Of a stretch of 63,793 nucleotides of DNA, positions 12,293 through 43,339 are shown piece by piece. Where the stretch lies: assembly GCA_029288485.1 (NCBI GenBank), contig JARIHC010000008.1:1-63793 (forward strand), given 5' to 3'. A program made the position numbers and the translations under genes. This DNA is from Candidatus Saccharimonadota bacterium (GTDB taxonomy: Bacteria; Patescibacteriota; Saccharimonadia; Saccharimonadales; UBA4665). Numbering within the stretch: the first letter of the stretch is position 1; each line of letters opens with the position of its first letter. Below the pieces are notes generated by a model, which was not told the DNA's origin, did no database searches, and saw only the letters and a program-made list of their open reading frames with translations.

Positions 12293-12739
12293 TTATGAAT
12301 GAGACTCGTGGACAATCGCGTGGCCTTTGCCGCGGGCAATAAGATAGCGATTAACAGGCGTAGCAAAAACGAAAGCAACTGCTAAAGCGGCAGCTAAACT
12401 CAACCAGAACAACAACGTACCCGGTCCGGCCGCTAACACACCGGGAATTAGTAAGATAACAGCTGTGTCGGTAATTTCCATAGTTACTATTGATAAAGTA
12501 TCCGAAGCTAGGGCTATTCGGCCGGCTTTTTTAACCGCCAAGCCATTTTTGAGCAACGGCCGCATGGTCATGGAATAGCCAAATATAAAAGCTAAAGGGA
12601 TAGTTAGGCACTCGGTAGCTAAATTATTCCAGTTAAAACCAGAGCCGACTACGGATCCTAAAACCTCCCCAATAGCACAACCGCTTAGGCAGTGCAGAGT
12701 AGCAGCTATGGCTAATTTTGTGAGAGCTTTGTTGTTCAT
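12293..12739 (-). CDS. DUF4396 family membrane protein, 148 aa
   Basis: The family signature is clear: an N-terminal ATLHCLSGCAIGEVLGSVVG with conserved His-Cys-x3-Cys, four hydrophobic helices, and the C-terminal PVNRYLIARGKGHAIVH. The conserved Cys/His residues suggest metal or redox chemistry, but DUF4396 has no established function. It is divergent from a heavy-metal P-type ATPase with 43 bp between the starts. Each gene has its own -10 box, consistent with shared metal physiology (inference). TATACT is exactly 6 nt before this ATG. Confidence 0.8.
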   Translation of the reverse strand: MNNKALTKLAIAATLHCLSGCAIGEVLGSVVGSGFNWNNLATECLTIPLAFIFGYSMTMRPLLKNGLAVKKAGRIALASDTLSIVTMEITDTAVILLIPGVLAAGPGTLLFWLSLAAALAVAFVFATPVNRYLIARGKGHAIVHESHS

Positions 12740-12745
12740 ACTTAC

Positions 12746-12751
12746 AGTATA
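12746..12751 (-). promoter_or_regulatory. -10 box TATACT, leaderless start of DUF4396 gene
   Basis: TATACT-N6-ATG on the minus strand. Confidence 0.6.
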
Positions 12752-12766
12752 TCGATTAGGAATTGC

Positions 12767-12772
12767 TATACT
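12767..12772 (+). promoter_or_regulatory. -10 box TATACT of the P1B ATPase gene
   Basis: TGC-TATACT, 10 nt before the ATG at 12783. Confidence 0.55.
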
Positions 12773-12782
12773 AAGATAACCT

Positions 12783-14621
12783 ATGTTTAAACGCTTTTTG
12801 CAGTTTTTGCGTCATTATAAATTATTTAGTCTGGCAGTAATAATTATTGTTGCCGGATTAGCGCTGCAGATCGGCGGTATGACAAAAGCGGCTCACTGGC
12901 TACTGGGGATTGTTTCTATAATAGAGGTGTTGCCGCTTGCTTGGGATATGTGGCAGGATATTCGCTCTGGTCGTTATGGCATTGATGTCTTAGCGGCTAC
13001 TGCTATTATAGCTTCTGTCATTCTGGGTCAGTATTGGGCGGGAATAGTAGTGGTGCTTATGCTAACCGGCGGTGAGGCGTTAGAGGATTTTGCGCATCAC
13101 CGAGCTCAGTCAGAATTAGACGATTTACTGGCGCATGCGCCGCAAAGGGCTCGCACAGTCCGTAAGGGCAAGACCCTGGAGATACCTGTTGACGAGTTGC
13201 GCGTCGGCGACAAAATTATTATTAATGCTGGTGATTTGGTACCGGCCGACGCCATAGTATTAGAAGGCGCAGCCAACTTTGACGAATCCTCGCTTACGGG
13301 CGAAAGTCTGCCACAATCTAAACAGGTCCAGGACTCTTTATTAAGCGGTGCAATTAACCTTGACGGCTCTATTACAGCTAAAGTTACAGCCGCCGCACGA
13401 GACAGCCAATATCAACAAATTATTAGACTAGTTCAGAGTGCCGCAGCCAGCCAAGCACCGTTTGTGCGTTTAGCTGACCGTTACAGTATTCCGTTTACAT
13501 TAGTAGCCTACGCTATTGCTGGCGGTGTATGGGCTTATAGCGGCCAGCCAATACGTTTTTTGGAAGTTATAGTGGTAGCAACCCCCTGCCCTTTATTATT
13601 GGCTGCGCCAATAGCACTCATCAGCGGCATGGCTCGGGCAAGTAAATACGGAATCATCGTTAAGACCGGGTCGGCCTTAGAACGATTAGCCGAAGCCAAA
13701 ACAATAGCTTTTGATAAAACCGGTACCCTCACGCGCGGTAAGTTAGTCGTGGATAGCATAAATGGCTACGGCGATTTTTCTCAGAATGATGTCATAAGTC
13801 TGGCGGCCAGCTTGGAGCAAGGCTCTAATCATGTTGTTGCTCACGCCATAACCGATAACACCAAATCTAAAAAAATTAAAACTAAGAAAGTTAAGCAGGT
13901 ACGGGAAGTTTCCGGACGCGGTTTGATGGCCAGCGTAAAAGGCCAAGAGGTGCTGGTAGGCCGTTTGAGTTTCCTAGAAGAAAATCAGGTTAAGATGCCG
14001 GCTCAATTTAAACGCGGAAGTCTCAAACAAAGCGTGGTATATGTGTCGCGAGACGGGGAGTTAGCCGGCACTATTACTCTAAAAGACGAGTTGCGGCCAG
14101 AAGCGGCCAAGACCCTGAAAGAGCTAAATCAATTAGGTATAGACGAAACTCTAATGGTGACCGGTGACAATAAGGCAACAGCAGAAGCCATCGCTAAACA
14201 ACTAGGCATCAGCCACGTCCATGCCGAAGCTCTGCCGGCTGAAAAACTACACGTACTAGATGAAGTAAAAGCTCGACCAATGGCATTTGTTGGTGACGGC
14301 GTAAATGACGCGCCCATTCTGACCGCAGCAGATATTGGTATTGCGCTTGGAGCGAGAGGCTCGACCGCTGCCAGCGAGTCGGCCGATATGGTCATTATGT
14401 TAGACGACGTAAGCCGAGTTGCTACAGCTGTAGCCGTAGCCAAGCACACATTTCAAATAGCCAGACAAAGTATTTTAATTGGTATAGGTCTGAGTGTCGT
14501 CTTGATGTTAGTTTTCGCAACTGGCGCCTTTTCGCCGCTTACCGGTGCCATCGCCCAAGAGGGTGTAGACGTATTTGTTATCTTCAATGCCCTAAGAGCT
14601 CATATTATAAATGTCAGTTAG
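12783..14621 (+). CDS. P1B-type heavy-metal-translocating ATPase with TPC motif
   Basis: 612 residues, cytoplasmic membrane. Present are the actuator TGES (SSLTGESLPQ), the membrane metal motif ATPCPLLLAAP (about residue 266), the phosphorylation site DKTGTLT (Asp at about 311), TGDN and GDGVNDAP. There is no N-terminal metal-binding domain. The transmembrane motif is TPC rather than CPC or SPC. The usual HP dipeptide of the nucleotide domain reads NH (SNHVVAHA). TPC is a recognised but poorly characterised P1B subclass, so the transported ion cannot be named. The C-terminal helix pair ends GAIAQEGVDVFVIFNALR. Confidence 0.9.
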   Translation: MFKRFLQFLRHYKLFSLAVIIIVAGLALQIGGMTKAAHWLLGIVSIIEVLPLAWDMWQDIRSGRYGIDVLAATAIIASVILGQYWAGIVVVLMLTGGEALEDFAHHRAQSELDDLLAHAPQRARTVRKGKTLEIPVDELRVGDKIIINAGDLVPADAIVLEGAANFDESSLTGESLPQSKQVQDSLLSGAINLDGSITAKVTAAARDSQYQQIIRLVQSAAASQAPFVRLADRYSIPFTLVAYAIAGGVWAYSGQPIRFLEVIVVATPCPLLLAAPIALISGMARASKYGIIVKTGSALERLAEAKTIAFDKTGTLTRGKLVVDSINGYGDFSQNDVISLAASLEQGSNHVVAHAITDNTKSKKIKTKKVKQVREVSGRGLMASVKGQEVLVGRLSFLEENQVKMPAQFKRGSLKQSVVYVSRDGELAGTITLKDELRPEAAKTLKELNQLGIDETLMVTGDNKATAEAIAKQLGISHVHAEALPAEKLHVLDEVKARPMAFVGDGVNDAPILTAADIGIALGARGSTAASESADMVIMLDDVSRVATAVAVAKHTFQIARQSILIGIGLSVVLMLVFATGAFSPLTGAIAQEGVDVFVIFNALRAHIINVS

Positions 14622-14622
14622 C

Positions 14623-15252
14623 TTAAGTTAAGAATCTTAGAGCACCTGCTACCACTAACGGAACTAGCAAATTATCTAATCCGGCAACTCCAAGGTTTTC
14701 TATCATGCTAGCGATAATAGATAGATCAAATATGAACGTGGCTGTTAAATGCTGTCCGCTACTATGTGAAAAGCCAGCCAATATAACGACTGAGACCATA
14801 AAGAAAGTCAGGGTCCCCAAAACGCTTTTAGCGTGTCCAAAAACAATGTATCGAAAACGTTGCCCCCAGTGTGTACCAACCACAGCCGCAAAGCCGTCAG
14901 CTAAACTCATTTGCAGAAGAGCTGCCGCGTAAACCCATTTATTGTGAGTCATAAAAGTTATGCCACCCACGGCCAAAGCAAAAAATAACTCCCCCCAGGT
15001 GGGCCGCTGCACAGTGTGTATAGCTCTAAATACTTTTAGATATTTAGACACGCCGACAACTATCAAAAAAGCAACACTTAATAATTGTATTTCGCGCCAG
15101 CTAAGAAAAAAAGGCCAGAAGGCTACGAACGTTCCTACCGTTATATGCACAAATTTACGGGTAAATTCGGTATTGAGTTTTTGCTTGCGCCACCACAACT
15201 CGCCTATTACAAGTAGCAAAAAAACTACAGCTATAGTGCCAAGGATTCTCAT
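14623..15252 (-). CDS. Phytol/dolichol kinase-like CTP-dependent membrane kinase
   Basis: 209 residues with six or seven membrane helices. The motif TRKFVHITVGT near residue 31, the helix containing LLQMSLADGFAAVVGTHWGQRF (about residues 112-133) and HAKSVLGTLTFF are typical of the dolichol kinase/VTE5/CDP-diacylglycerol synthase-like superfamily. These proteins use CTP to phosphorylate or activate prenols or lipids. The exact substrate is unknown. TACAAT 6 nt before the ATG fixes the start. It converges with the P1B ATPase with 1 bp between them. Confidence 0.75.
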   Translation of the reverse strand: MRILGTIAVVFLLLVIGELWWRKQKLNTEFTRKFVHITVGTFVAFWPFFLSWREIQLLSVAFLIVVGVSKYLKVFRAIHTVQRPTWGELFFALAVGGITFMTHNKWVYAAALLQMSLADGFAAVVGTHWGQRFRYIVFGHAKSVLGTLTFFMVSVVILAGFSHSSGQHLTATFIFDLSIIASMIENLGVAGLDNLLVPLVVAGALRFLT

Positions 15253-36524: not shown

Positions 36525-36560
36525 AGAAAACCGCCAGCAGCAGTAAACGCGCTGGCGGTT
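36525..36560 (-). terminator. Intrinsic terminator after the Pro/Asp-repeat peptide gene
   Basis: A 10-bp stem (AACCGCCAGC with GCTGGCGGTT) with a 12-nt loop. On the minus strand it is followed by TTTTCTT. Confidence 0.7.
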
Positions 36561-36580
36561 AGTCGATCGGTAAAACCCTT

Positions 36581-36790
36581 TTAAACGGGTGGAGCTGCAG
36601 GTGGTTCTGCAGGTGGCTCCGATGCGCCGGGATCGGGGTCCGGTGCCGGGCTTGAACCCGGATCTGGTGATGGATCAGGGCCGGGAGTCGGGTCCGGGCC
36701 TGGAGCCGGTACTGAGCCGGGGTCTGGTGCCGGCGGCGGTGTTGTGCCAGGATCGTTAGAATCTGGTACTGGGTTATCTGCTGGTGGCAT
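36581..36790 (-). CDS. Pro/Asp/Gly-repeat peptide, 69 aa
   Basis: The peptide is low complexity: tandem PDPG-, PGPDP- and PAPDP-like units over nearly its whole length, with no hydrophobic segment. It is nevertheless likely to be expressed. The ATG has a strong Shine-Dalgarno site (AGGAGAG, 6 nt spacing), the stop is followed by an intrinsic terminator, and it stands alone between ruvC and ruvA. An overlapping frame gives a longer Arg/His-rich frame that lacks these signals. Function unknown; a disordered cytoplasmic or surface peptide is possible. Confidence 0.6.
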   Translation of the reverse strand: MPPADNPVPDSNDPGTTPPPAPDPGSVPAPGPDPTPGPDPSPDPGSSPAPDPDPGASEPPAEPPAAPPV

Positions 36791-36848
36791 AGGATGCTCT
36801 CCTCATTTTTATTGTTTAATAACTTCTTCACTGTAACACAGAAAAGCG

Positions 36849-40365: not shown

Positions 40366-40968
40366 CTACTTTTTTGTGTTTGCAAACGCTGCCAGGGCCA
40401 CTAATAGTGCCAGACCAGCGATAATATAAGGTCCAGACTGGTTATTAGATTTTAAAATATCATTATTAGAAGAGTGAGCCAGATCGTCTTTCACGCTTGT
40501 AACAGAATACGGTCCTGTGTCACCAACGGAATCATCACCACCAGCTGGTTTTTGATCCCAATTCACAACCGTACCATCCGCGTAAGTTTGATAGGCTTTC
40601 CAGTCCAGCTCAGTGGCCTGTCCTGGCGCTTGTGCGCCAAAACTGAAATCCTGGCGCTGTCCGGCTGGGATGCTGCCCGACCAGGTAATACTGGTTACTT
40701 CAGAATCTTTATCACTGCTGGTAGTAATTGCCCAGCCGGTCTTGGTTGTCGGAGTAACGTCAGTTATTCCGGAGGGTATCAGAAGCTTGATACTGCTAAC
40801 TGGAACCTGCCGTTCGTTAGGAACACTAACATTAAATACCAGGTCTTGAGCTATTCTGGCTTGGCTCGGTGTTACGATCACATGGGCGTAAGCAGTACCG
40901 GGCAAGAAGACGGTCAGGCCCAACACAATGCCCACAAAAACTTTTTTAAGTATTCTTTTTATTGCCAC
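40366..40968 (-). CDS. YcnI-like DUF1775 copper-associated envelope protein
   Basis: I choose the GTG at 40968, 7 nt after TATAAT; it gives a clean signal peptide (AIKRILKKVFVGIVLGLTVFL ... AYA). The mature protein starts with His (HVIVTPSQARIAQDLVFNVSVPNE), the hallmark of DUF1775/YcnI, whose N-terminal His takes part in copper binding. The beta-sandwich has WSGSIPAGQRQDFSFGAQAPG and ELDWKAYQTYADGTVVNWD. A C-terminal membrane helix (PYIIAGLALLVALAAFA) anchors it outside the cell. It is the third gene of a unit with a haem-type membrane protein. Confidence 0.82.
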   Translation of the reverse strand: MAIKRILKKVFVGIVLGLTVFLPGTAYAHVIVTPSQARIAQDLVFNVSVPNERQVPVSSIKLLIPSGITDVTPTTKTGWAITTSSDKDSEVTSITWSGSIPAGQRQDFSFGAQAPGQATELDWKAYQTYADGTVVNWDQKPAGGDDSVGDTGPYSVTSVKDDLAHSSNNDILKSNNQSGPYIIAGLALLVALAAFANTKK

Positions 40969-41488
40969 GCCTCTTATTATAATCATAGTTTTGTTTGTAT
41001 GCTCCAAGCAATATTAGACATATGCCTAACCCAAGGCCAATACCTAAAATCGGCGGAAAAGTTTGGGTGGTGATACTGTTTTGGCGCGACGCAACTCTCT
41101 CCAAATAAATTATTTCAAAGGGCTGAAAGGCGTCAGATTTTTTCGGCTTTCCTTGAATTGTCAGGATATAAGCACCTGGTTTGGGAAAGGTAAATGTATT
41201 ATTGCTTTGTAACCGGCTGGTGTCTCGAAGAGAATGTGCGGCAACTGTTTGGCTGCCATTTTTTACAGTCACTGTGCAGTTGCATTCTGACAACGAAAAA
41301 CGACCTGTATCGTCGTTGAAATAGAGGGCATACGCAGTGGGAGTACCGCTTATGGGGTTGTCGTCAGGATTAATGTGCAACACTGCGCTGATATTACCAT
41401 CAACCTTAAGCACGTGGGCGCTAGCAGTACCGCTAAGAGCTAACGAGGCGGTTGTTATTGCAATCACCAGGACGGCAAATTGCCTCAT
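40946..41488 (-). CDS. Membrane-anchored envelope protein with N-terminal His, 180 aa
   Basis: A signal peptide (FAVLVIAITTASLALSGTASA) is followed by a mature N-terminus HVLKVDGNISAVLHINPDDNP, then a beta-sandwich domain with SLSECNCTVTVKNGS (a Cys-x-Cys) and FTFPKPGAYILTIQG. A C-terminal membrane helix (PPILGIGLGLGICLILLG) and a basic tail close it. The exposed N-terminal His, early acidic residues and C-x-C suggest metal, perhaps copper, binding (inference). The family is not named with confidence. It overlaps both neighbours. Confidence 0.7.
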   Translation of the reverse strand: MRQFAVLVIAITTASLALSGTASAHVLKVDGNISAVLHINPDDNPISGTPTAYALYFNDDTGRFSLSECNCTVTVKNGSQTVAAHSLRDTSRLQSNNTFTFPKPGAYILTIQGKPKKSDAFQPFEIIYLERVASRQNSITTQTFPPILGIGLGLGICLILLGAYKQNYDYNKRRGNKKNT

Positions 41489-42141
41489 GATTTTCTTTGT
41501 TTACGTTTGATGTTCCGAAGGATCCGTACTGCCTCCAACCAGAGTAGTGCCACAACACCAACGGATGTTAGGGTGCTCAAAAAACCTAAGCCAGAGTAAT
41601 GCGGACCAATTAATATTATATGTATCAAAATTGCCAATCCAGCTAAATAAACCAATCTGTGAAGTAGTTTCCAATTCTTAAAGCCAAGTGTGTCAACCGC
41701 CCAATCCAAGGACGTAACAGCCATAATAAATAATACGGCCAGCGCAAAAATTCCCAGCCATAATGAAAAAGCGAAGCGTCTATTTAAATGTGCAACGCCG
41801 CTAAAACCGCCAAGCTGACCAAAAAAACTTATATAAACGTGCAGGAATGCATAATAAAACGTTAAAACGCCAATTGCTCGGCGCGCATGCAAATATACGT
41901 CTTTAAACGGCAGCTGCGGATAGACTTTGGTGAGCGGCGACGCTAGTAATGCTGCATACAATAAAACCAGTGAAATAAAGCCGCAAAACTGCTCAATGCG
42001 AATGGTTTGCAGCGAGCCAGGCGGCACTAACAGCTGTACTGATCCGACTATAATAAAAGACAGTACTACGCCCGATACCAATATCCAAAACCGACTATTA
42101 TCCAGTAATCGGTGAAGTCGCAGTAAAAAAATGTCCTTCAT
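41485..42141 (-). CDS. Ferric reductase-like haem membrane protein
   Basis: 218 residues with six membrane helices. Paired histidines lie in HARRAIGVLTFYYAFLHVYI (about residues 85-104) and in LLHRLVYLAGLAILIHIIL (about 157-175), the spacing of haem-b ligands in the ferric reductase-like transmembrane domain family (YedZ/MsrQ, NOX, FRE). No FAD/NAD domain follows. The protein may pass electrons to the two envelope proteins encoded downstream (inference). TATGCT is exactly 6 nt before the ATG. Confidence 0.82.
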   Translation of the reverse strand: MKDIFLLRLHRLLDNSRFWILVSGVVLSFIIVGSVQLLVPPGSLQTIRIEQFCGFISLVLLYAALLASPLTKVYPQLPFKDVYLHARRAIGVLTFYYAFLHVYISFFGQLGGFSGVAHLNRRFAFSLWLGIFALAVLFIMAVTSLDWAVDTLGFKNWKLLHRLVYLAGLAILIHIILIGPHYSGLGFLSTLTSVGVVALLWLEAVRILRNIKRKQRKS

Positions 42142-42147
42142 CTTATC

Positions 42148-42153
42148 AGCATA
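42148..42153 (-). promoter_or_regulatory. -10 box TATGCT, leaderless start at 42141
   Basis: TATGCT-N6-ATG on the minus strand, heading the three-gene haem/copper-like unit. Confidence 0.55.
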
Positions 42154-42169: not shown

Positions 42170-43339
42170 TTATGCGCTTGCTGTACGCGGCGTTCGAATC
42201 AATCGTACTGCGTAACCAGCCGGAATACCTATAATCAAGCCTATGGCTAGCACCACCCTAACCGATGTCACTTCGCTTAGCAAAGCCAGCAAGCCAAAAG
42301 TTAGCACATCTCCTACTACGCAAGCCATCATCATTGCGTAAACATACGGTATTAAAGGCTCGTGTTCAGCGTTTGAGTAATAGCGCGAATAGTAGGGCGT
42401 CACCACCAGTGCCTGCCCTAACCCATTAAAGAAATTGATACCAGCAATTTGTCCCGCTGACTGCCCAATCAGCCGGACGGCATTAGTAAGCCCAATGACC
42501 CCAGCCCCGTTTCTTAGATAACTGGTTATTTCTTTAGGTTTACGTCGGCCAGCATAAAACGCGATTACAATGCTGGCAATAACGGCAATTGAACTCAAGA
42601 CGCCTACGCCCACATAGCTCGGAATAATCAAAAATATGAATAGCGGCCAAACATTTGCCGCAATGCCGGCATCTACTTCAGATCCCATATTGGCAACTAA
42701 ATCTCGCCAGATTTTTCGCCAAGCAATTTCTCGTAAGTTATAGCTTTCTTTTTTAATAAGTTGTCCGCCAGCAAATAATGGTCCGGCGGCGGCTGCGAAA
42801 CACAACATTGCCACAATATATAACGTAATTATGCCAAACCAGCTGGCGATAACACCGCCGATGGCCGGCGCTATACCTAAAGCCAGCATTAAAAGAGCCG
42901 ATGATATGCCCACTGCCGGCGCAACTTTACGGTGCAGCAGACTTTTTACAAAACTTGCTCTAAACTGTGGCCAATAAAGCGATATAGCTATACCCCATAC
43001 CAGCGCAATTAACCATAGGGGCCAATGATATACGCTTATTGTAGCGAACATCAGTATTTGCAATCCTTCGCCAATTAGCCCTAGCGCCATAGCCCGGTTA
43101 AAACCAATTTTATTGGACCAGCGTAATATTGGACCTTGAGTAATGCCCCAAAACACTGAAGCAAGCATAAAATAAATCATGATGGACCGAATACTATAGT
43201 GCAATTTATAAAGATAAATCGGCACGAAAATGGTCACCATGTTTGAAGCTAGACCTCTAACGGTGTGCGCCCAGTACAATTGACGCAATTCTTTGAGCCT
43301 AAGAGAGTGGTATAAAGTGTGATGTGGACGATGCGCCAT
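42170..43339 (-). CDS. Major facilitator superfamily transporter
   Basis: 389 residues with 11-12 predicted membrane helices in two halves of six. Polar loops carry RWSNKIGFNRAMALGLIGE after helix 2, a degenerate MFS loop motif. It resembles efflux-type MFS proteins, but no substrate can be inferred. TATAAT lies 10 nt before the ATG. It is divergent from the DMT transporter gene at 43402. Confidence 0.85.
   Translation of the reverse strand: MAHRPHHTLYHSLRLKELRQLYWAHTVRGLASNMVTIFVPIYLYKLHYSIRSIMIYFMLASVFWGITQGPILRWSNKIGFNRAMALGLIGEGLQILMFATISVYHWPLWLIALVWGIAISLYWPQFRASFVKSLLHRKVAPAVGISSALLMLALGIAPAIGGVIASWFGIITLYIVAMLCFAAAAGPLFAGGQLIKKESYNLREIAWRKIWRDLVANMGSEVDAGIAANVWPLFIFLIIPSYVGVGVLSSIAVIASIVIAFYAGRRKPKEITSYLRNGAGVIGLTNAVRLIGQSAGQIAGINFFNGLGQALVVTPYYSRYYSNAEHEPLIPYVYAMMMACVVGDVLTFGLLALLSEVTSVRVVLAIGLIIGIPAGYAVRLIRTPRTASA

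Follow-up and report, generated by a model that had tools for sequence, protein, structure and literature searches.

The stretch of DNA considered here (hereafter the window), 63,793 nucleotides of contig JARIHC010000008.1 from a Candidatus Saccharimonadota bacterium, carries three overlapping minus-strand genes that span 42141-40366 in its open reading frame listing and encode a Ferric_reduct-type membrane protein (FRD), the protein of the middle gene (mid) and a DUF1775/YcnI protein. This trio can be read as an extracytoplasmic copper-handling unit whose main client would be the CuB site of a bo3 quinol oxidase and which would be used when copper is scarce, a reading that we regard as evenly poised. 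An initial annotation made from the sequence alone had described the genes as a haem/copper-like envelope module of a probable fermenter, possibly belonging to a metal-defence set; its observation was confirmed, and its interpretation, which is partly supported, moves from a fermenter defending itself against metal to an oxidase-bearing bacterium that handles copper.

Copper-site residues and predicted folds

The assignment of the third gene product to DUF1775/YcnI holds, with a PF07987 match over the cut-off (E 3e-19, 70.1 bits against a gathering score of 25). A profile match to Bacillus subtilis YcnI (7me6; E 2e-22) superposes both the His at the N-terminus and the copper-ligating Trp, and His42, Glu65 and Trp150, the copper-site residues of the B. 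subtilis protein, are invariant in all 19 aligned sequences (that of G064 is left out of the alignment). The same 19 sequences have Ala-His at a signal-peptidase-like site, where His is predicted to begin the mature protein, and YcnI would bind Cu(II) through this His together with the Glu and the Trp. The two envelope proteins do present His at their predicted mature N-termini, as originally proposed (ASA/HVLKVDG in mid, AYA/HVIVTPS in YcnI).

For mid, no significant Pfam or NCBIfam family was found, nor any CopC-, YtkA- or FixH-type Pfam match with E up to 1, and sequence comparison with solved structures returned weak filamin-like and other matches only. Homology between mid and YcnI was rejected, because their profile comparison aligns only the signal peptide and the first residues. 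His25, at the predicted mature N-terminus, and His38 are each invariant in 29 of 29 aligned sequences (those of G064 and G031 are left out), with the second His at mature position 14 in 14 sequences, at 16 in 15 and never at 15. The model of the mature protein (predicted local distance difference test, pLDDT, 92.3) is an eight-strand sandwich with a C-terminal helix and strands at 2-6 and 9-15, a secondary structure expected to place residues 1 and 14 opposite one another on a hairpin. Since the spacing is 14 or 16 and never 15, the predicted hairpin would keep both His face to face, the two-residue step in the turn preserving their register. Sequence and model together suggest that mid probably binds Cu(II) at a site formed by two His of a single hairpin.

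Structural comparison of the mid model with VIA placed the copper-resistance determinant CrdA first (Z 12.3; root-mean-square deviation 2.2, 99 residues aligned), with FetP at 10.2, PmoD at 10.1 and CopC (5icu) at 8.8 (deviation 3.0, 95 aligned); these copper-protein entries stand among many unrelated immunoglobulin-type entries at Z 9-10. YtkA and FixH do not appear in the list, an absence that excludes nothing. In its model, mid may share the beta-sandwich fold of CopC, CrdA, PmoD and P19/FetP; it differs from them in having no sequence-family match, in the two His of its first hairpin and in its C-terminal membrane anchor.

FRD is, as annotated, a six-helix protein with haem-type His. It matches PF01794 (Ferric_reduct; E 5e-13, 49.5 bits against a gathering score of 28), its model (pLDDT 86.7) has six helices with the haem-type His in helices 3 and 5, and among 21 aligned homologues His101 and His174 are kept in all, His161, which lies 13 residues from His174, and His181 in 19. 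Foldseek returned STEAP2 as the sole match below 0.001 (E 7.5e-4), with STEAP1 and STEAP4 next; VIA gave Z 14.9 for STEAP1 and 14.6 for both STEAP4 and STEAP2, the next entry, a designed helical protein, reaching 12.7; and a three-sequence FRD profile ranked STEAP2 first (E 0.0018), with a weak alignment of the His to those of STEAP2. The charges of FRD suggest an N-in/C-in topology, in which His101 and His174 would lie nearer the outer side of the membrane. Within its 218 amino acids there is no flavin/NAD(P)H domain of the kind found in STEAP2-4, FRE and NOX, PF01794 being the sole Pfam match. FRD resembles STEAP1 in this respect, which also lacks an integral cytosolic reductase domain, while its six-helix fold and the aligned His of helices 3 and 5 are common to STEAP1-4; it differs from the STEAPs in being bacterial and short, in lacking an NADPH/FAD domain and in being encoded with two His-first ectoproteins. 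On the strength of sequence and model, FRD is a probable extracytoplasmic metal (Cu2+/Fe3+) reductase. A CcoG-type iron-sulfur reductase was rejected, as FRD has a single Cys and no Cys motifs for two [4Fe-4S] clusters.

In a Levyibacteriota metagenome-assembled genome (MAG; L113:4460-6004) and another Patescibacteria MAG (L115:1927-3471), FRD is part of a 514-amino-acid fusion with an extracytoplasmic region that contains two HxHP motifs. This region matches no Pfam family above cut-off; it looks metal-binding and offers a Rosetta-stone hint.

A role in MsrPQ-like repair, in which FRD would act as an MsrQ-type electron donor to an extracytoplasmic methionine-sulfoxide reductase, appears very improbable. 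MsrQ (NF003831, E 2.6e-12) is the best NCBIfam match of FRD, and the His101-His161-His174 layout resembles the MsrQ ligand spacing, but the score, 46.7 bits, falls short of the cut-off, 130 bits, the MsrP family PF00174 is absent from the genome of the window and occurs in just 1 of 30 mid genomes searched, and the conserved partners of FRD are mid and YcnI. The score below cut-off and the missing PF00174 mostly exclude it.

Conservation of the gene order

The survey covered 392 genomes of the class, in which the window is contig C7 of genome G000 (0.91 Mb, 97.5% complete). DUF1775 is present in 20 genomes and the mid profile matches 31, one of them (G031) weakly, including all 20 with DUF1775. 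In 13 of these 20 (G000, G001, G002, G133, G144, G162, G163, G198, G232, G292, G299, G301 and G404) FRD, mid and YcnI are contiguous on one strand. The genes are thus kept together, and the N-terminal His of mid and YcnI and His101 and His174 of FRD do not vary among the aligned orthologues, both findings upholding the initial annotation; the His are retained much more strictly than chance would allow. In the other DUF1775 genomes, pgi is inserted between mid and YcnI (G360), YcnI is convergent with FRD-mid at a distance of 2.4 kb (G294), mid and YcnI occur without FRD (G016, G028, G064, G128) or the two lie on separate contigs (G067). Eleven mid genomes have no DUF1775: six carry FRD-mid without YcnI (G003, G040, G259, G274, G300, G336) and five carry mid alone (G004, G009 at a contig end, G012, G031, G242). 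Overall, FRD adjoins mid in 21 of the 31 mid genomes. At the G012 locus (L102:2470-7132) mid is clustered with genes for a permease, a ZIP-like transporter, a ferredoxin-reductase-like protein and a CsoR/RcnR-like regulator; by eye, this regulator has His where a second Cys would be expected.

A named-genome search beyond the class, with 17 loci retrieved by one pattern, found the trio in one Doudnabacteria MAG (L112) and in the Levyibacteriota MAG (L113). The pairing of FRD with mid is not confined to bacteria of the Candidate Phyla Radiation (CPR) but extends beyond them, because in the cyanobacterium Chlorogloeopsis fritschii (L117:4263-6531) a DsbD_2-FRD fusion adjoins a mid homologue.

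These arrangements bear on whether the trio is one system at all, or a copper pair, mid-YcnI, that often has a separate reductase, FRD, in its vicinity. Such independence would fit the 4 of 20 DUF1775 genomes whose mid-YcnI has no FRD beside it and the 6 of 31 mid genomes whose FRD-mid has no YcnI. Its improbability follows from the adjacency of FRD to mid in two-thirds of the mid genomes, in Doudnabacteria, in Levyibacteriota and in one cyanobacterium, and from the pairwise distances of the three proteins, which correlate across the 15 genomes with all three aligned (r 0.73, 0.47 and 0.58; 0 of 2000 permutations as high, without species-tree control).

Association with the bo3 quinol oxidase

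The description of the organism as a probable fermenter with no respiratory chain proved wrong. The same genome encodes cyoABCDE (bo3 quinol oxidase) on contig C2, apart from the trio, and these genes adjoin an FAD-linked dehydrogenase and a probable NDH-2, identified by eye and from weak family matches. Both CyoB (TIGR02843, 1049.7 against a cut-off of 1020.35) and CyoA (TIGR01433, 298.4 against 266.2) pass their family thresholds; CyoB aligns with that of Escherichia coli bo3 (E 1e-267) and conserves the CuB His and quinol-site residues of the E. coli protein. The occurrence of bo3 oxidases in Saccharibacteria has already been published (PMC6031116, PMC8407418). A pair of response-regulator and sensor type, recognised by eye, lies near cyo in G000, G016 and G028 (L048:4175-5887, L055:13092-14842, L056:3259-4961) and might regulate the oxidase.

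Operon structure links the module to this oxidase in two genomes: the order is cyoABCDE-FRD-mid-YcnI in G001, with overlapping cyoE and FRD genes, and cyoABCDE-FRD-mid in G274. Of the 392 genomes surveyed, 138 have COX1 (136 over cut-off); it is present in 18 of the 20 DUF1775 genomes versus 120 of the 372 others (Fisher p 3e-7, phylogeny ignored) and in 28 of the 31 mid genomes versus 110 of the 361 others (p 5e-11, likewise).

Several points weigh against the oxidase as main client and against copper handling more generally. The co-occurrence p-values take no account of phylogeny, and DUF1775 occurs in only 18 and mid in 28 of the 138 COX1 genomes, most of which (120) are without DUF1775. 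The trio or FRD-mid is linked to cyo in 2 of the 31 mid genomes, G000 not being one of them; wherever else a mid genome has COX1, module and oxidase are not adjacent in the loci examined. Three genomes (G292, G299, G040) carry the trio or FRD-mid without COX1 or COX3, and they have no matches to the multicopper oxidase family PF07731, to PF00127 or to PF13473; loss of the oxidase to an assembly gap was rejected for them, since COX3 is absent too and the genomes are listed as 96-99% complete. CrdA, the best fold match of mid, is described as containing no His at all (PMC9182242), and the match therefore speaks for the fold and not for the site. Signal cleavage, copper and haem binding and reductase activity are themselves predictions. 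Finally, a Fur-type regulator and a ZIP-like transporter, noted by eye, stand behind YcnI in L113 and would also fit iron or zinc.

The last point belongs to the main rival reading, iron acquisition, in which FRD would be a surface ferric reductase and mid a counterpart of the copper-dependent P19, FetP and FtrA proteins, together supplying iron for haem or iron enzymes. FRD does fall in the Ferric_reduct family, STEAPs reduce Fe(III), the mid fold list holds FetP, FtrA, HftA and P19 at Z 8.8-10.2, and in L113 the Fur-type and ZIP-like genes are directly downstream. We nevertheless consider iron acquisition unlikely, since the partner kept in the 13 contiguous trios is YcnI, with all the copper ligands of the B. 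subtilis protein, CrdA outranks the P19 group among the fold matches, the module co-occurs with a haem-copper oxidase, and no FTR1-type permease was noticed by eye beside the trio in the loci read.

Other copper proteins were considered as general clients. Multicopper oxidase (PF07731) was rejected, since 3 of 30 mid genomes have it and G000 does not, as was plastocyanin-type cupredoxin (PF00127; 11 of 31, not G000). PF13473 matches occur in 15 of 30 mid genomes (13 over cut-off), one of them in G000, on contig C4; this membrane-anchored cupredoxin-like protein (L136:1192-1620) keeps the His positions and is without the Cys expected at a type-1 copper site. FRD-mid in G003 and mid in G009 have a plastocyanin-type protein as neighbour, which speaks for copper handling, and at these loci (L098:9854-12383 and L100:1-1651) a second, weakly Ferric_reduct-like membrane protein accompanies the plastocyanin-type protein and mid; this grouping is possibly a separate copper/haem cluster.

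The P1B-type ATPase and copper defence

The initial annotation had joined the trio with the P1B-type ATPase of the window into a metal-defence set, in which mid and YcnI would sequester surface copper and protect the cell together with the ATPase. The one link between them comes from G016, where mid-YcnI is divergent from an orthologue of this ATPase (L051:11149-12984; 59% identity over 608 amino acids). Window positions 12293-15252 and L051:9816-13626 are syntenic for the ATPase and its downstream neighbour (56% identity), the divergent neighbour being a DUF4396 gene in the window and mid-YcnI in G016. The hint of a loose association is real, but it is the only one, and defence can also point to a copper-resistance determinant as the best fold match of mid. 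It is nonetheless distinctly unlikely, and less likely than supply or acquisition. The arrangement is found in 1 of the 20 DUF1775 genomes; by NCBIfam the ATPase exceeds the Cd-family cut-off and stays below the Cu-family one; a membrane Cu(II) reductase would raise the level of Cu(I), the more toxic form; the trio co-occurs with an oxidase; and B. subtilis YcnI and YcnJ are reported to act under copper limitation (PMC13344008). Of the earlier suggestion that the module reduces or traffics copper at the surface, a copper role at the cell surface is still the best reading; the defensive purpose is the less likely part.

Proposed mechanism and known systems

In the copper-supply reading, YcnI would bind Cu(II) outside the cell with the His that begins the mature protein, the Glu and the Trp, and mid would hold Cu(II) between its N-terminal His and the second His facing it across the hairpin. 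In FRD, His101 and His174 would ligate a single haem b close to the outer face of the membrane. Through this haem, electrons that probably come from quinol, itself fed by NDH-2, would reduce the bound Cu(II) to Cu(I), which would be delivered, directly or via the cytosol, mainly to CuB of the bo3 quinol oxidase, whose genes lie elsewhere in G000. The unit would matter under copper scarcity and would not be an obligatory assembly factor. This exofacial capture, reduction and delivery is proposed because of the ligand conservation in YcnI and mid, the metalloreductase fold of FRD, the cyo operon link, the FRD-HxHP fusions of L113 and L115 and precedents in B. subtilis and Bordetella.

In B. subtilis under copper limitation, YcnJ is described as critical and YcnI as secondary for the quinol oxidase Qox, and according to the same work YcnJ has no known associated reductase (PMC13344008). 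The trio resembles the YcnI-YcnJ-CtaK system, as portrayed in PMC13344008 and PMC8424229, in its membrane-anchored DUF1775 protein with a His/Glu/Trp site, in a second type of probable exofacial copper protein and in a quinol oxidase as the likely client. It differs in that no CopC-CopD importer (YcnJ) is seen in it, mid occupying the place of the CopC/YtkA partner, and in that it adds a probable haem-b reductase.

CrpH of Bordetella, a haem-type membrane protein that supports haem-copper oxidases, is speculated to be a copper reductase, and bo-Qox has been named a good candidate for its client (PMC13038864). Like FRD, both CrpH and CcoG, the cupric reductase of cbb3 oxidase, are membrane redox proteins tied to haem-copper oxidases, copper reduction having been shown for CcoG and proposed for CrpH. 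CcoG, however, uses two iron-sulfur clusters and CrpH is a PepSY_TM protein, whereas FRD is a six-helix protein of the Ferric_reduct/STEAP type that is co-operonic with candidate copper carriers. For the E. coli bo3 quinol oxidase, CuB insertion is stated to be unknown in PMC10588857.

A more specific proposal is that CPR bacteria have a minimal copper-loading pathway for bo3, composed of YcnI, two-His-hairpin carriers that would form a new family, and a cupric reductase with haem b and a STEAP-like fold, in some lineages within one operon with cyoABCDE, which would supply a dedicated extracytoplasmic Cu(II) reduction step missing from known YcnI pathways. This version is tentative, and we lean somewhat against it.

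Start site and neighbouring features

The coordinates of the features discussed are collected in Table 1. Direct reading of 42153-42141 bears out the start described in the initial annotation, with TATGCT followed by GATAAG and then the ATG at 42141 (TATGCTGATAAGATG), a layout that, from its sequence, is possibly a leaderless-type start. A TATGCT-like motif precedes the FRD start in only some homologues, and a conserved leaderless promoter was rejected for this reason; a promoter scan was likewise no richer in the real sequence than in shuffles. The gene overlaps reported earlier were likewise found, 4 nucleotides for FRD/mid and at least 41 for mid/YcnI, since an in-frame ATG at 40986, an alternative to the TTG at 41007 as YcnI start, gives 41 and the genes overlap with either start.

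Table 1. Coordinates of the trio and of associated features in the window.
Feature	Position	Strand	Description
P1B-type ATPase	12783..14621	+	TIGR01512 (Cd family) 488.1 bits vs cut-off 313.5; TIGR01511 (Cu family) 379.8 bits vs 397
YcnI/DUF1775	40366..41007	-	213 amino acids from TTG; signal peptide, predicted mono-histidine-brace copper domain, C-terminal membrane anchor
mid	40946..41488	-	180 amino acids; signal peptide, Ig/CopC-like beta-sandwich (model), C-terminal membrane anchor
FRD	41485..42141	-	218 amino acids; six-helix haem-b-type Ferric_reduct protein, STEAP-like fold (model), no flavin/NAD domain
TATGCT, -10-like	42148..42153	-	six bases upstream of the FRD ATG
Major facilitator superfamily (MFS) transporter gene	42170..43339	-	directly upstream of FRD, 28-bp gap

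The upstream MFS gene was rejected as a conserved fourth member, as it has no relative in other module loci, and it is probably outside the trio. Elsewhere in the window, a proline-rich, low-complexity open frame (36559-36831; PDPGSSPAPDPDPG...) lies between ruvA- and ruvC-like genes.

Significance

In the open-licence literature, no paper was found that pairs YcnI with a ferric reductase or with Saccharibacteria, or DUF1775 with Patescibacteria or with a metalloreductase. The trio offers a compact candidate in which a reductase and two copper-site proteins are encoded together, sometimes inside an oxidase operon, in highly reduced bacteria. If the copper-supply reading is true, it would add a haem-b route of copper reduction beside CcoG and CrpH, mid would constitute a new copper-protein family, and some CPR bacteria would maintain their own copper supply for respiration.

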